Shown: piece by piece, positions 3,044 through 7,822 of the stretch
How positions within the stretch are numbered: position 1 is the first letter of the stretch
Layout: every line of letters begins with the position of its first letter
Source: Treponema sp.
Lineage (GTDB): Bacteria > Spirochaetota > Spirochaetia > Treponematales > Breznakiellaceae
Length of the DNA: 8,089 nucleotides
NCBI GenBank assembly: GCA_031283505.1
Contig: JAITBO010000409.1
Span: forward strand, 1-8,089
Direction: 5' to 3'
The notes under the pieces: model-generated
What the model saw: the letters and a program-made list of their open reading frames with translations, nothing else
What the model was told of the DNA's origin: nothing
Database searches by the model: none
Program-made: the position numbers and the translations under genes

Positions 3044-3526
3044 TTAGTCCCGGCTGGTTTCGATTTGAATCACCCGCTTCTGGGCTCCAGCCCGCTTCTT
3101 AATCTCCAGATTCAGAAGGCCGTTCCGAAAGGCGGCAGTGACGGATTCGGTGTCAGCGTCCTCGGGCAGCCTGAAGGAGCGGCTGAAGGAAGCGCGCCGG
3201 CGTTCCCGGACAATGAACCGGTCTTCGCCTCCTTTTTTCCCTTCCTTTTTGGGGGACACATCCCGGGCGTTTTCCTCTTCTTTTTTAGATTCGATGGAGA
3301 GGGTGTTTCCATCCACCTGAACGCGGATATTGTTCTCGTCATATCCGGGGAGTTCGGCTTCGATCAGATAGGTGTTGTCGGTCTCCCGGATATCCACCGG
3401 CGGTACCTGCCCGGTTTTCCCAAAAGTGGGAGCGAGAGGGGAGTCCCCGAAAACGGATCCTATGTACCGGTCAAAGTCATCCAGGGCCGTCTCGATGGTA
3501 AAGGGGTGAAGAGCTACAGTTTTCAT
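3044..3526 (-). CDS. Small heat-shock protein (Hsp20 / alpha-crystallin family)
   Basis: This 160-residue ATP-independent cytoplasmic holdase binds unfolding proteins and hands them to DnaK/ClpB systems. The alpha-crystallin domain spans about 42-145, starting at PPVDIRETDNTYLIEAELPG and ending in NGLLNLEIKK; N135-G-L-L138 is the family's NGLL/NGVL motif. The C-terminal I153-Q-I155 is the I-x-I motif used for oligomer assembly. A lysine/glutamate-rich stretch (about 82-101) makes the mid-domain loop longer than usual. The start was chosen at the MKTVALHPF methionine because AGGAGGT (3539-3533) lies 6 bases upstream; an in-frame ATG at 3577 would add 17 unconvincing residues and lies inside the structured leader. 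The gene stands alone, with its own terminator and an upstream sigma-54-type promoter. Confidence 0.95.
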   Translation of the reverse strand: MKTVALHPFTIETALDDFDRYIGSVFGDSPLAPTFGKTGQVPPVDIRETDNTYLIEAELPGYDENNIRVQVDGNTLSIESKKEEENARDVSPKKEGKKGGEDRFIVRERRRASFSRSFRLPEDADTESVTAAFRNGLLNLEIKKRAGAQKRVIQIETSRD

Positions 3527-3709
3527 AATAATACCTCCTGGGTATGTTTTGTATTTCGTTCCAAACTTACCCGGCAACGCCGGCGTACCAGTTGGAACGG
3601 TGGATTTTCGACCGGTATTACCGGCCAGCCGGAAACTACTATGGCCGGTTTCCGGCGTTGAATCCGGCGGACCTTTGGGTTTCCCCGACCCCGCTGGATT
3701 TCTTATTCA
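3527..3709 (-). promoter_or_regulatory. Structured 5' leader of hsp20, RNA-thermometer candidate
   Basis: In leader RNA, reading towards the gene, a perfect 9-bp hairpin (3656-3648 with 3636-3628) is followed by a small CCGG stem near 3624-3612. Next comes a long hairpin (3599-3592 with 3564-3557, 8 bp, enclosing a CCGGC/GCCGG stem at 3583-3571). Last is a 5-bp hairpin, ATACC/GGTAT (3545-3541 with 3535-3531), whose loop and 3' arm hold the AGGAGGT ribosome binding site. Several stem-loops ending in a weak one over the Shine-Dalgarno sequence is the general layout of ROSE-type thermometers of small heat-shock genes. No match to a ROSE consensus is claimed. The 5' end assumes the sigma-54 promoter is used. 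Confidence 0.5.
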
Positions 3710-3719
3710 TTTATTTATA

Positions 3720-3735
3720 AGCAAATTCCGTGCCA
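3720..3735 (-). promoter_or_regulatory. Sigma-54 (RpoN) promoter upstream of hsp20
   Basis: The minus strand reads TGGCACGGAATTTGCT. Every position fits the sigma-54 consensus TGGCACGRNNNTTGCW, with the invariant GG (-24) and GC (-12) separated by 10 bases. The predicted start is near 3709, about 183 bases before the hsp20 ATG, and points towards that gene. No comparably good sigma-70 promoter is seen between here and hsp20. Activation would need an AAA+ enhancer-binding protein, with sites expected upstream at higher coordinates, where a large palindromic element lies. Confidence 0.75.
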
Positions 3736-3775
3736 TATTTTGTAATAATATCAAATTTGTGCAATTTTTTATAAT

Positions 3776-3833
3776 GAGCCCGTCCCAAAACTAATTGACT
3801 GTACGCTAACGCACACGGTTTTGGGACAGACTC
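3776..3833. repeat. Hairpin family copy B
   Basis: Arms 3776-3791 and 3818-3833 pair at 14 of 16 positions, with an unbroken 10-bp inner stem GTCCCAAAAC/GTTTTGGGAC. The two mismatches are C/A on the plus strand, which would be G-U wobbles in minus-strand RNA. The 26-base interior can form a small second stem (TGT/ACA and CG/CG around CTAA, 3800-3815). Confidence 0.75.
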
Positions 3834-3835
3834 TT

Positions 3836-3900
3836 GCAGTTTTTCAGGCTGAAAGCCTGCGAACCGAAGGTTCGTCGAACATTCGGTTCGACAAAACTGC
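3836..3900. other. Three-way-junction fold inside the palindromic element
   Basis: An outer stem GCAGTTTT/AAAACTGC (3836-3843 with 3893-3900, 8 bp) encloses two hairpins. One is CAGGC-TGAAA-GCCTG (3845-3859). The other has CGAACCGAA paired to TTCGGTTCG (3860-3868 with 3882-3890, 9 bp) and a further inner GTTC/GAAC pairing. The two inner helices abut with no spacer, and only 1-2 unpaired bases link them to the outer stem. Either strand could fold. No known RNA family is recognised; the repeated arms may simply reflect nested palindromes. Confidence 0.5.
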
Positions 3901-3910
3901 GAATTTCAGG

Positions 3911-3946
3911 GAGGCTTTCCCAAAACTGAAGTTTTGGGAAAGCCTC
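3911..3946. repeat. Hairpin family copy C, perfect 16-bp stem
   Basis: GAGGCTTTCCCAAAAC (3911-3926) pairs perfectly with 3931-3946 around a TGAA tetraloop. Compared with copy A, two arm positions have changed on both sides so that pairing is kept. TAATATAAGG follows, similar to the TAATTATTAGG after copy A. No T run follows, which argues against a simple terminator. Confidence 0.85.
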
Positions 3947-4050
3947 TAATATAAGGAATTATGTTTATTGAACCTTTGTTTTTTGTTTTGAATTAAAGAA
4001 AAATATGATAAAAATTTTGGATCAAATTATTTGCGTCATTTTTTCCTGTA

Positions 4051-4093
4051 TGTGTATCAAACAAGAATTTACTATGTATCAAAATGACACATA
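4051..4093. promoter_or_regulatory. Operator-like repeat cluster
   Basis: TATGTATCA (4073-4081) and TGACACATA (4085-4093) form an inverted repeat with 8 of 9 matches and a 3-base AAA centre. A similar half-site, TGTGTATCA (4051-4059), lies 22 bases upstream in direct orientation. The arrangement resembles a dimeric regulator site with an accessory half-site. It is about 110 bp upstream of the start of the AlbA-domain gene; which gene it would serve is unknown. Confidence 0.4.
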
Positions 4094-4110
4094 ATATAAC
4101 AAAAAACTTT

Positions 4111-4134
4111 TTGCCCAATCAGAAACCTGGGCAA
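4111..4134. other. 7-bp hairpin in the intergenic region
   Basis: TTGCCCA (4111-4117) pairs with TGGGCAA (4128-4134) around a 10-base loop. It has no T run on the plus side, and on the minus side the T run is offset by about six bases, so a terminator role is weak. Its purpose is unknown. Confidence 0.4.
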
Positions 4135-4165
4135 TTATGAACCACCAGGATAAGCTATTTTTTGC

Positions 4166-4194
4166 TTGACAGAATGATTAGAATATATTAAAAT
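4166..4194 (+). promoter_or_regulatory. Near-consensus sigma-70 promoter of the AlbA-domain gene
   Basis: A perfect TTGACA (4166-4171) is followed after exactly 17 bases by TAAAAT (4189-4194, 5 of 6 consensus). The predicted start is near 4201, about 26 bases before the ATG, in AT-rich DNA. As one of the strongest promoters visible here, it would be expected to need repression; the overlapping repeats at 4177-4208 are candidates. Confidence 0.75.
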
Positions 4195-4208
4195 GTATTA
4201 GAATATAT
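4177..4208. repeat. Two 12-bp direct repeats overlapping the promoter
   Basis: ATTAGAATATAT occurs at 4177-4188 and again at 4197-4208, a 20-bp period or about two helical turns. The first copy fills the spacer up to the -10 box and the second covers the predicted start. A protein bound to both would block transcription. The downstream product ends in a winged helix, so autoregulation is a reasonable guess. Confidence 0.6.
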
Positions 4209-4226
4209 CAGCAACGGTGGAAAAAA

Positions 4227-5639
4227 ATGATAAATATACCGGAAAGCCTTACCGTAGAATTTAAACGGGAATATACCGAAGAACTCAAAAAAACCATTGC
4301 AGCTTTTGCCAATACCAAAGGCGGAACCCTCTATATCGGCATAGCCGATGATGGATCGGTGGTGGGAGTAGACAACCCGGACGAGACCATGCGCAAGATC
4401 ATAGATTCGGTACGCAATGGAATAAAGCCCGATGTCACCCTATTTGTGGGCTATAAAACAGAAATTATGGAAGGAACCGGCGTGATCGTTGTAACCGTCC
4501 AGCAGGGAACCGCTGCGCCATATTATCTCGTGAATAAAGGACTTAAACCCGAAGGGGTATATGTCAGGCAGGGCGCTTCCTCTGTCCCGGCCTCCGAAGC
4601 CGCCATCCTCAAAATGATCAAAGAAACAGACGGCGAGCGCTACGAGGAAGTCCGTTCCCTCAACCAGGACCTGACCTTTAAGGAAGCCGAAAAATTCTTT
4701 GCCGAAAAAGGTTTCTCCTTAGGCGTCAATCAAATGAAAACCCTCCACCTGATGACGCCGGATGGCGTATACACAAACCTCGGCCTGTTGCTTTCTGATC
4801 AGACAATCAATACGGTCAAATTAGCGGTTTTTGAAGGCGGTGAAAAAGAGATATTCAAGGACAGGCGGGAATTTTCCGGGTCTTTGCTCAAGCAACTGAG
4901 GGACGCCTATGATTTCATCGATATGTACAACCATACTCATGCTGAAGTAACCGGCCTTTACCGTACCGATACCCGTGATTACCCCGAAGATGCCATACGA
5001 GAGGCCCTGCTCAACGCCATGGTTCACCGGGATTACGGGTTTGCCGGTAGCACCCTTATCAGCATCTTCTACGACCGCATAGACTTCGTTTCTATCGGGG
5101 GCCTTCCTAAAGGTATTTCCCTGGAGGATATAATGCTGGGCATCTCGGTTCCCCGGAACGAGAATCTTGCAAACATCTTTTACCGGCTCAAATTGATAGA
5201 AGCCTATGGTACGGGGATCCCGAAGATACTGCACAGTTATGCGGACTTTCCCGGACAGCCCCTGCTACAGACCACCGGCAACGCCTTTAAGATTACCCTG
5301 CCCAACCGGAATACCACCGGAATAGCGGCCAGACCCAACAGAGCCGTCCATTCCCAAATAGACAACAGGGCGTTTCCCTCTATAGTAGCCGAACACACAC
5401 CTCCCTATGGCGTCCGGTACGGCCCGCAGCAGCCTTACTCCGCATCGTCGCGTCCGCTCACTGAGGGCGAGGAAAAAGCCTTGGCCCTGTTCGACACCAG
5501 GCAGGTGGTTGTACGGAAAGATCTGGAAGCCGCCCTGAGCGTCTCTCAGGCCATGGCAGTCCGCCTCTTGAGGGGCTTGCTGGACAAAGGCGCAATACGG
5601 TCCGTGGGCGGCGGCAAAAACACCCGTTATACCCGGTAA
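4227..5639 (+). CDS. AlbA_2 (Schlafen-like) and ATPase-domain predicted transcriptional regulator
   Basis: The 470-residue protein has the layout of COG2865-type predicted regulators. Residues about 5-120 form the AlbA_2 domain, with ESLTVEFK at the start and FANTKGGTLYIGIADDG (27-43). Residues about 250-360 resemble the GHKL-type ATPase region of this family: EALLNAMVHRDY (259-270, N263 as the N-box asparagine), GGLPKGI (291-297) and YGTGI (327-331). A proline-rich linker (about 365-412) leads to a C-terminal winged helix (about 415-470). It is probably a cytoplasmic, nucleotide-responsive DNA-binding protein; targets are unknown. The start fits the family N-terminus and has GGTGG (4216-4220) 6 bases upstream. 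It is a single-gene unit convergent with the YjbQ gene. Some relatives sit in stress or phage-defence loci, but nothing here shows that. Confidence 0.88.
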   Translation: MINIPESLTVEFKREYTEELKKTIAAFANTKGGTLYIGIADDGSVVGVDNPDETMRKIIDSVRNGIKPDVTLFVGYKTEIMEGTGVIVVTVQQGTAAPYYLVNKGLKPEGVYVRQGASSVPASEAAILKMIKETDGERYEEVRSLNQDLTFKEAEKFFAEKGFSLGVNQMKTLHLMTPDGVYTNLGLLLSDQTINTVKLAVFEGGEKEIFKDRREFSGSLLKQLRDAYDFIDMYNHTHAEVTGLYRTDTRDYPEDAIREALLNAMVHRDYGFAGSTLISIFYDRIDFVSIGGLPKGISLEDIMLGISVPRNENLANIFYRLKLIEAYGTGIPKILHSYADFPGQPLLQTTGNAFKITLPNRNTTGIAARPNRAVHSQIDNRAFPSIVAEHTPPYGVRYGPQQPYSASSRPLTEGEEKALALFDTRQVVVRKDLEAALSVSQAMAVRLLRGLLDKGAIRSVGGGKNTRYTR

Positions 5640-6208: not shown

Positions 6209-7822
6209 ATGGATATTCAAAGCGTGGTGAAAAATCTGCATCCCCTGGAGGTCCGCATAATCCTGGGCTATAAGAAGGGAGATGAACTTTCTATAGAGAA
6301 GGTGGAAAAGGAACTGGGCTTTAAGCCGGGGAACGGGAACCAGGCCCTGTCGTGGCTTGCGGCCAAGGGCGTTATCAGGGAGATACGCCGGGAAACTTCG
6401 GTTTTTTTTGAATTGACCGATCTTGGCCGGGAGTGGAAGGAAAAGGGGGCCCCGGAGGAACGGATCGTTGAGTTGGTCCGGATCCAGCAGGGGCGGCAGT
6501 TGCCGTGGATAGCCCAAAATCTGGGCCTGGATGCCAGGGATGTGGGGAGTGCGTTCGGCGCCCTGTCCAGGCTGGGGGTCTTAGGCATGGATGCCGGAAA
6601 GGGAGTGATTCTCACTCTGCCGGAGGATCAGCTTGCCGATGGCCGGCCCGCCAAGGGTGCGGCTGCCGAATACTTCGCCCTCCTCAGGGGGCTCCTGAAC
6701 AAGGCGGACGCAGCTCCGGGCGGACTTTTGGCGCGGGACAGTCTCTCCGAAGCCGAAGCCGGCCGTATGGCGGGGATAGCCAGAAAACGGGGCGCCGCAG
6801 GAGCGCCTTTCCGGGAGGCGGACCGTGAAACGGTGCTTTTCGGCTTTTCAACGGGCGGGGGCGAGGCTGTAGACCGGGATGTCCTGGCGGCGGACCTCAC
6901 GGCGGCGGGGATTACCGGGGACGAGATAGGAACCCTTACGGCGGATATGCTTGAGACAGGAGCCTGGAAGGGCAAGAGTTTCCGGTCTTACAATGTGCAG
7001 GTTCCTCCCTCACGGCTCATCGTGGGACGGACCAATCCTTACGCGCAGTTTCTGGAGAATGTAAAAGATAAACTCGTGTCCCTGGGTTTTGAGGAATTTG
7101 ACGGGCCCTTGGTGGAGACGGAATTTTGGAATTCCGACGCCTTGTTCATGCCCCAATTCCATTCCGCCCGGGACATCCACGATGTGTACCGTATTGCCGA
7201 GCCGGATCACGCCGGAGCCATTGAGGAACCCTGGCTGTCCAATGTTGCGGCGGCTCATGAGAACGGGGGGGGTACTGGCAGCCGGGGCTGGAATTACGCC
7301 TTTGACCGGGATTTTACCCACAGGCTCATACTCCGCAGCCAGGGTACGGTGATGTCCGCCAAAACCCTGCCCCGCGCCGTTATTCCGGGCAAATACTTCG
7401 GGATGCTCCGGGTGTTCCGGTATGACAAGGTGGATGCCACGCATCTTCCGGATTTTTACCAGACCGAGGGCATCATTCTGGGGGAGGATGTGAACCTTAA
7501 AACCCTTTTGGGTATGCTAGAAATGTTCGCCGTTGAGGTCGCGGGCGCCAAAGAGGTAAAATATGTTCCGGGCTACTTCCCCTTTACCGAGCCATCAGTG
7601 GAGGTCCACATCAAACACCCGGTCTTGGGATGGTTCGAACTTGGCGGATCGGGGATCTTCCGTCCTGAGGTGACCGAATCTCTGGGGGTACACGTACCTG
7701 TCGCGGCTTGGGGTATAGGCATAGACCGGATGGCCCTGATGGCCCTGGGGCTCAATGATCTGCGGGAATTGTTCAGTTATGATATTGAACACATCCGGCT
7801 CAGGCGCGCCCAGGGTGCCTGA
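6209..7822 (+). CDS. pheS: Phenylalanine--tRNA ligase alpha subunit, archaeal/eukaryal type
   Basis: This 537-residue class II synthetase subunit charges tRNA-Phe as part of an alpha2beta2 enzyme with PheT. The N-terminal region (about 1-150) contains winged-helix modules (from HPLEVRIIL), the archaeal/eukaryal arrangement, rather than the coiled coil of typical bacterial PheS. The catalytic core runs from about 265. It has motif 1 (NPYAQFLENV from 276, then FWNSDALFMPQFHSARD), HENGGGTGSRGW, motif 2 (VFRYDKVDATHLPDFYQTEG from 402) and motif 3 (GIGIDRMALMALG from 502). Where most PheS proteins read LRTHT, this one reads L375-R-S-Q-G-T380, altering residues near the active site. The 150-265 linker is alanine/glycine-rich and poorly conserved. 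GGAG (6200-6203) lies 5 bases before the ATG. It is divergent from the YjbQ gene, and no pheT follows. Confidence 0.95.
   Translation: MDIQSVVKNLHPLEVRIILGYKKGDELSIEKVEKELGFKPGNGNQALSWLAAKGVIREIRRETSVFFELTDLGREWKEKGAPEERIVELVRIQQGRQLPWIAQNLGLDARDVGSAFGALSRLGVLGMDAGKGVILTLPEDQLADGRPAKGAAAEYFALLRGLLNKADAAPGGLLARDSLSEAEAGRMAGIARKRGAAGAPFREADRETVLFGFSTGGGEAVDRDVLAADLTAAGITGDEIGTLTADMLETGAWKGKSFRSYNVQVPPSRLIVGRTNPYAQFLENVKDKLVSLGFEEFDGPLVETEFWNSDALFMPQFHSARDIHDVYRIAEPDHAGAIEEPWLSNVAAAHENGGGTGSRGWNYAFDRDFTHRLILRSQGTVMSAKTLPRAVIPGKYFGMLRVFRYDKVDATHLPDFYQTEGIILGEDVNLKTLLGMLEMFAVEVAGAKEVKYVPGYFPFTEPSVEVHIKHPVLGWFELGGSGIFRPEVTESLGVHVPVAAWGIGIDRMALMALGLNDLRELFSYDIEHIRLRRAQGA

Follow-up and report, generated by a model that had tools for sequence, protein, structure and literature searches.

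The small heat-shock gene hsp20 of a gut spirochaete, carried on an 8,089-nucleotide stretch of a Treponema sp. assembly (the whole of which is called the window here), is very probably transcribed from a working sigma-54 (RpoN) promoter, as judged from a perfect -24/-12 match and its conservation in related genomes. The near-universal occurrence of this promoter upstream of hsp20 among these relatives points to a stress circuit that has been little noticed. A preliminary description of the window was right about the promoter; it overlooked a palindrome in helical phase with the -24 box and the interruption of this palindrome in the window. The relevant features, with the evidence for each, are as follows.

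3044 to 3526, minus strand: hsp20 coding sequence, 160 amino acids, ATG at 3526 (PF00011, E = 3.4e-21; orthologue L001, 83% identical)
3527 to 3709, minus strand: predicted GC-rich 5' leader of about 183 nt, from a predicted transcript start (conserved with L001)
3720 to 3735, minus strand: sigma-54 -24/-12 promoter TGGCACGGAATTTGCT (shuffles, counterpart in L001, conservation upstream of hsp20)
3761 to 3775, minus strand: promoter-proximal palindrome half ATTATAAAAAATTGC, with one ATTA copy (score of the rejoined palindrome)
3776 to 3946, minus strand: hairpin-rich, MITE-like element of 171 bp (inverted repeats, folding, repeat family)
3947 to 3962, minus strand: distal palindrome half ATAATTCCTTATATTA, with the second ATTA copy (rejoined palindrome; undivided in L001)

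The hsp20 promoter and its conservation

Sigma-54 promoters follow the consensus TGGCACGN4TTGCW. The 16-mer TGGCACGGAATTTGCT, read from 3735 to 3720 on the minus strand, agrees with this consensus at all specified positions; GG lies at 3734-3733 and GC at 3722-3721, which is the GG-N10-GC spacing within TGGCAC-N5-TTGCW. The consensus fit, the spacing and the orientation toward hsp20 had all been described from the letters alone and are borne out, the gene being recognized by PF00011. The site starts 209 nt upstream of the ATG at 3526, and the transcript is expected to begin near 3709, the position given previously. In dinucleotide-preserving shuffles of the window, TGGCACGN4TTGCW appeared in 1 of 1000 and the looser TGGCAYN5TTGCW in 13 of 1000. 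When up to two mismatches are allowed, one site is found against 3.4 expected by chance, and the case therefore rests on the perfect match together with conservation. A chance origin of TGGCACGGAATTTGCT was considered and is rejected in view of the shuffles and of conservation among hsp20 upstream regions.

The nearest relative is a Treponema MAG (G001), in which the Hsp20 locus L001 (the same gene as L009) encodes a protein 83% identical to that of the window and has TGGCACGGTATTTGCT at the corresponding place. Conservation was assessed in 147 relatives chosen around G001, their kinship not being specified by the search. Hsp20 was found at E <= 1e-15 in 113 of them, at 117 places in total, and 110 of these places plus the window gave 111 upstream regions (left out: G091, G102, G111, G119, G132, G141 and G144). 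A GG-N10-GC site scoring at least 13 of 15 within 300 bp is present in 108 of the 111, compared with a mean of 2.1 in shuffles (maximum 4, 20 rounds), 3/111 on the opposite strand and 2/103 in the region from -700 to -400. Conservation of the -24/-12 element at orthologues, which the preliminary description had proposed as a check, is thus seen in 107 of 110 relative upstream regions as well as in the window. The strict TGGCAYN5TTGCW occurs in 81 of the 110 upstream regions with at least 150 bp of DNA (shuffles: mean 0.1, maximum 2; opposite strand: 0).

The site is missing in three of the 111 (L058, L104 and L064), and L064 has the near-match TGGCACGGTTTTTGTA, one base off, with GT in place of GC. 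L058 is the second hsp20 copy of G036, which we take to be Breznakiella homolactica; the first copy, L021, has the site. Loci L002-L007, L039 and L040 are not part of the 111. Among these, L002 has the sigma-54 site TGGCACGCTCTTTGCA; L003 and L004 have 212 and 148 bp of upstream DNA, which reads as an upstream hsp20-like gene and is too short to judge. L005-L007 come from other or unclassified bacteria: L005 and L007 have no site and L006 only a weak one. Two distant Hsp20-like loci were seen on viral contigs.

The sigma-54 DNA-binding domain of rpoN is found in 139 of the 147 relatives, G001 included, a count that concerns the relatives and not the window's own genome. Eight relatives lack rpoN by two Pfam models, one for the DNA-binding and one for the core-binding domain, and four of them (G012, G047, G075 and G084) keep hsp20 with the site (L012, L065, L017, L025 and L051). 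These four are counted against the sigma-54 explanation; given their high contig numbers, they are likely to be incomplete drafts, which is not proof.

In the alignment of window positions 3500-3760 with L001, mean column identity is 92%. By eye, a Shine-Dalgarno sequence AGGAGGT closely precedes hsp20. A 150-nt part of the leader folds with z = -2.57 relative to shuffles, and Rfam at its gathering thresholds gave no match in the window; a role of the leader (3527-3709) as a translation-control element is possible. Elsewhere in the window, a strong sigma-70-like site (TTGACA-17-TAAAAT, 11/12; 4166-4194) lies upstream of a divergent Schlafen/AlbA_2 gene at 4227. A 537-aa protein encoded at 6209-7822 has a match to PF01409 (phenylalanyl-tRNA synthetase core) that starts at residue 261, leaving a long N-terminal part.

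A phased palindrome and its interruption in the window

The DNA upstream of the -24 box has in common a 27-bp palindrome of approximate form TAATTCyTTATAnTATAArGAATTA. It scores above the 98% shuffle threshold in 73 of 107 upstream regions scanned, with a model trained on the same regions, and falls below it in the other 34. With the regions split into halves, a model built on either half placed 33 of 53 and 27 of 53 regions of the other above the 99% shuffle level. The distance from the palindrome centre to the T of the -24 box ranges from 18.5 to 95.5 bp, with clusters at about 18, 28, 39, 50, 60 and 69 bp. Phasing at 10.5 bp is strong (n = 60, R = 0.645, Rayleigh p of about 1.4e-11; no equally strong value in 20000 jittered sets); these p values overstate, since orthologues are not independent, and serve as a guide only. 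The 60 are those of 65 palindromes above 15 bits that lie closer than 100 bp, five at 100 bp or more being left out; L002 is included among both the 107 and the 60.

The same phase is found in a separate set of 21 sigma-54 promoters of other genes (R = 0.71; mean phase 8.06 bp, against 8.05 bp for hsp20). This set consists of 19 promoters of at least 12.2 bits and two from a palindrome-based set; best matches above 12 bits were considered, with L253 excluded because it nearly duplicates L218 and three hsp20 entries left out. The palindrome is not a sign of sigma-54 only, because no sigma-54 site lies within 100 bp for 36 of the 42 non-hsp20 palindromes examined in G036, G040 and G031. The 42 were drawn from 51 palindromes, and among the other nine, three are known to have a sigma-54 site (two hsp20 genes and L230). 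By eye, the partnerless palindromes precede genes resembling dnaA, dnaN, metK and others. A palindrome beside dnaA- or dnaN-like genes, by eye and with no sigma-54 site, was seen at L172, L174, L188 and L297 (G036, G040, G031 and T. denticola). Per or Fur boxes and the BosR repeat were considered as identities of the palindrome and set aside, since those printed in the available part of PMC3037356 differ from it by eye in spacing or orientation.

In the window the palindrome is not intact, the best match being 5.5 bits. Removal of the insert and one ATTA restores a palindrome of 28.7 bits, centred 38.5 bp from the T of the -24 box and in the common phase; in L001 the palindrome is undivided. 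The insert, flanked by ATTA on either side as a duplication, sits at the palindrome centre. Its ends are 17-bp inverted repeats, 82% complementary, and parts of it form strong hairpins (z = -6.83 and -8.26). It belongs to a repeat family with 59 matches in G001, 24 in G018, 18 in G023, 6 each in G010 and G043 and 2 in G012, many of them partial, and none in G040, G031 or G036. A hairpin seen by eye at 146-191 of the window (AGAGTCTGTCC...GGACAGACTCT), upstream of a GH1 gene, resembles the ends of this element.

These observations suggest that the core promoter is intact in the window and that the phased control site is probably impaired. Whether hsp20 is thereby deregulated, with the core promoter alone remaining, is a question we put at slightly under even: the insert with its ATTA duplication falls right at the palindrome centre, but the proximal half is still in place and promoter and leader keep their 92% identity to L001, so that function may persist.

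A candidate stress regulon and T. denticola

We take G040 to be T. primitia, G031 T. azotonutricia, G030 T. caldaria and G131 T. succinifaciens. Strict sigma-54 sites number 10 in G036, 15 in G040, 17 in G031 and 24 in G030, against 13, 4, 3 and 1, respectively, for a backwards-pattern control; the G036 count is not above its control, and many of the listed sites fall within open frames and could be chance matches. In these four genomes an in-phase palindrome and a sigma-54 site together precede hsp20, two kinds of sigma-70-family factor (kind A: L180, L228, L230, L240; kind B: L202, L223, L224, L241) and the type III glutamine synthetase, GSIII (L204, L216, L227, L245). Only in G030 do both elements also precede a second Hsp20 gene (L225) and genes for a ferritin-like Dps-type protein (L233) and a 1-Cys-type peroxiredoxin (L237). 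The two elements were further found at three loci encoding similar proteins, L250 (no Pfam hit), L219 (no NCBIfam hit) and L232, and at a few others. L225, L233, L237, L240, L241, L245 and L180 were confirmed by protein models; the remaining genes were named by eye.

Sigma-54 sites that lack an in-phase palindrome precede genes for ammonium transporters and for a histidine kinase adjoining an enhancer-binding protein (EBP), as well as nifH. One strand of G040 carries, at short distances from one another (L180, L211), a histidine kinase gene that has a sigma-54 site to itself, an EBP gene, and then the palindrome, a further sigma-54 site and a gene of the sigma-70 family. A sigma-54 promoter before a sigma-70-family gene occurs in the relatives and not in the window. 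The shared pair of palindrome and sigma-54 site is a candidate mark of a sigma-54 stress regulon.

Exact matches within 400 kb to three of seven primer pairs published in PMC2965109 (TDE0937, TDE0345 and TDE1663) identify G134 as T. denticola; no match to the remaining four was seen in these 400 kb. Upstream of its hsp20 is TGGCATATAAATTGCT, with a palindrome at 49.5 bp. The sigma-factor gene TDE0937 has a palindrome and, at 69.5 bp, TAGCATGGTTTTTGCT, in which one G of the -24 box is lost. A peroxiredoxin gene that is 74% identical to L237, and which by its place is presumably TDE0011, has TGGCATGAAATTTGCT and no palindrome. According to the available text of the expression study (PMC2965109), HSP20 TDE1029 is induced 9.5-fold by heat (9.8 in another table), 8.5-fold by oxygen and 6.7-fold by osmotic downshift; TDE0937 2.8-, 21.8- and 14.0-fold; and ferritin TDE0449 3.0-, 8.3- and 4.0-fold, respectively. 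Peroxiredoxin tde0011 is up 38.6-fold by oxygen, and the same text describes T. denticola as having no OxyR homologue and leaves open the regulator of the oxygen-induced genes (PMC2965109).

Genome-wide, T. denticola has only four strict sigma-54 sites, two of which were examined, against one in the backwards control. In 400 kb around the stress genes there are 88 loose sites, of which that of hsp20 alone is accompanied by a palindrome in phase and above 15 bits. Direct sigma-54 control thus leaves most of the published stress response unexplained. The gene for ferritin was not found in the 400 kb, where the G030 query had no match. By eye, a palindrome lies about 216 bp upstream of a desulfoferrodoxin/neelaredoxin-like gene (L300), where no sigma-54 site was seen.

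Activator, alternative readings and known systems

EBPs were listed in the genomes of 16 relatives, all of which have them, and a family of response-regulator EBPs resembling Rrp2 is present in all 16. At E <= 1e-30, nothing but this family and a short EBP is seen in G104, G140 and G146; as none of the six strong EBPs of G031 is of the short type, the Rrp2-like family is the sole one common to all 16. In T. denticola its member has a receiver domain, an AAA+ domain and a Fis-type HTH (PF02954), and the gene order is histidine kinase, Rrp2-like regulator and FtsJ methyltransferase. Because ftsJ is TDE1968 (PMC2965109, available text) and TDE1970 and TDE1969 are named Hpk2 and Rrp2, the latter a predicted sigma-54 EBP, in the accessible part of PMC12070737, this regulator is most likely Rrp2. 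From these gene contents, the chances that the activator of hsp20 is the Rrp2-like response regulator appear to be even.

In the mechanism that we propose, sigma-54 polymerase would be held closed at the hsp20 site until oxygen, heat or osmotic stress causes an EBP, most likely the Rrp2-like regulator with its kinase, to open the promoter. This opening would be helped or gated by a dimeric protein bound at the palindrome, and the induced sigma factors would spread the response. Counted against such activation is the higher autophosphorylation of Hpk2 without oxygen, as stated in the part of PMC12070737 consulted. The explanation as a whole, namely a working sigma-54 promoter of hsp20 that is old in this spirochaete group and operates by this mechanism, is in our judgement likely.

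It seems highly improbable that hsp20 is driven by a sigma-70-type promoter, with the sigma-54 site in a minor role. E. coli offers a parallel for such an arrangement, in that ibpAB is transcribed by sigma-32 and ibpB by sigma-54 (PMC4370416, accessible text), but in a simple minus-strand scan of 3500-4230 the sole sigma-70-like match lies at 4211-4182, far upstream of the sigma-54 site, and the latter is strongly conserved. The preliminary description had named a sigma-70 box, at a mapped start elsewhere, as refuting evidence; no competing box of this kind was seen near hsp20 in the region scanned. An activator that varies by lineage, a GAF-type EBP being one candidate for some of them, would accord with the presence of the GAF-type family in 13 of 16 genomes (9/9 in one set and 4/7 in the other). 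This reading is unlikely, as G104, G140 and G146 have no GAF-type EBP yet keep the hsp20 site (L078, L111 and L085).

The palindrome itself could be the enhancer (UAS) of the activating EBP, with no third protein involved. Its centres, 18.5-95.5 bp upstream of the T of the -24 box, and its helical phasing suit a DNA-bound activator, and the Fis-type HTH (PF02954) of the T. denticola Rrp2-like EBP fits as well. On the other hand, the 36 of 42 palindromes with no sigma-54 site within 100 bp speak against this role, as do G104, G140, G146 and G113, which have the Rrp2-like EBP and an hsp20 palindrome below threshold (L078, L111, L085 and L082). We consider an enhancer role a lesser, though tenable, prospect, and give even weight to the proposal, made in the mechanism above, that a protein other than the activator binds the palindrome. 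When G134, G030 and G131 were searched with a palindrome profile, E-values were weak, 0.045 at best, and no gene clearly stood out as encoding such a protein.

In our literature search, which mostly did not extend to subscription papers, no report of a spirochaete hsp20 with a sigma-54 promoter was found. In Leptospira, sigma-54 targets in the available part of PMC12655853 are amtB and lipoproteins, and the word hsp20 does not occur in a paper on the Desulfovibrio sigma-54 regulome (PMC4641369). The preliminary description held sigma-54 control of a small heat-shock gene to be unusual. The control is supported, and it has a precedent: E. coli ibpB is likewise a small heat-shock gene transcribed by sigma-54 (PMC4370416, accessible text). 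The E. coli ibp operon is also transcribed by sigma-32, whereas hsp20 of the window showed no further promoter, and its site is conserved and accompanied by a phased palindrome. Among predicted sigma-54 targets in Bacteroidota and Planctomycetota, COG0071 (IbpA) appears in a chaperone cluster, which resembles the case of hsp20; in the part of that survey seen, this cluster is enriched in other phyla, and Spirochaetia are assigned a different one, COG0533 (PMC12316311).

The core stress response of T. denticola is similar in content, with HSP20 TDE1029, the sigma factor TDE0937 and ferritin TDE0449 all induced by heat, oxygen and osmotic downshift, and the term rpoN is absent from the main text of that study (PMC2965109). 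On the sequence evidence, sigma-54 with the Rrp2-like activator is a testable candidate for the control of part of the oxygen-induced genes. If this is true, a two-component signal and sigma-factor genes would be tied in treponemes to protein-folding and oxygen stress.

A likeness in design is offered by the Rrp2-RpoN-RpoS pathway of Borrelia with BosR, in which a response-regulator EBP and sigma-54 also switch on a second sigma factor and an extra DNA-binding protein acts near the promoter (PMC3037356, available part). BosR has the direct repeat TAAATTAAAT as its site, while the treponeme element is a 27-bp inverted repeat, and no membership in the BosR class is claimed for it. Unlike in the Borrelia cascade, the sites precede hsp20 and, in G030, the ferritin-like and peroxiredoxin genes themselves. 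We tentatively suggest, as the less probable but more general reading, that a sigma-54 stress regulon (hsp20, ferritin/Dps, peroxiredoxin, two sigma-70-family factors and GSIII) is ancestral and common to spirochaetes, and that within it an Rrp2-like EBP is gated by a dimeric palindrome-bound protein. The RpoN-RpoS-BosR system of Borrelia would then be derived from it, and the window, with its gate cut by a mobile element, would be a natural test. If so, the RpoN-RpoS circuit of Borrelia would gain an older context.
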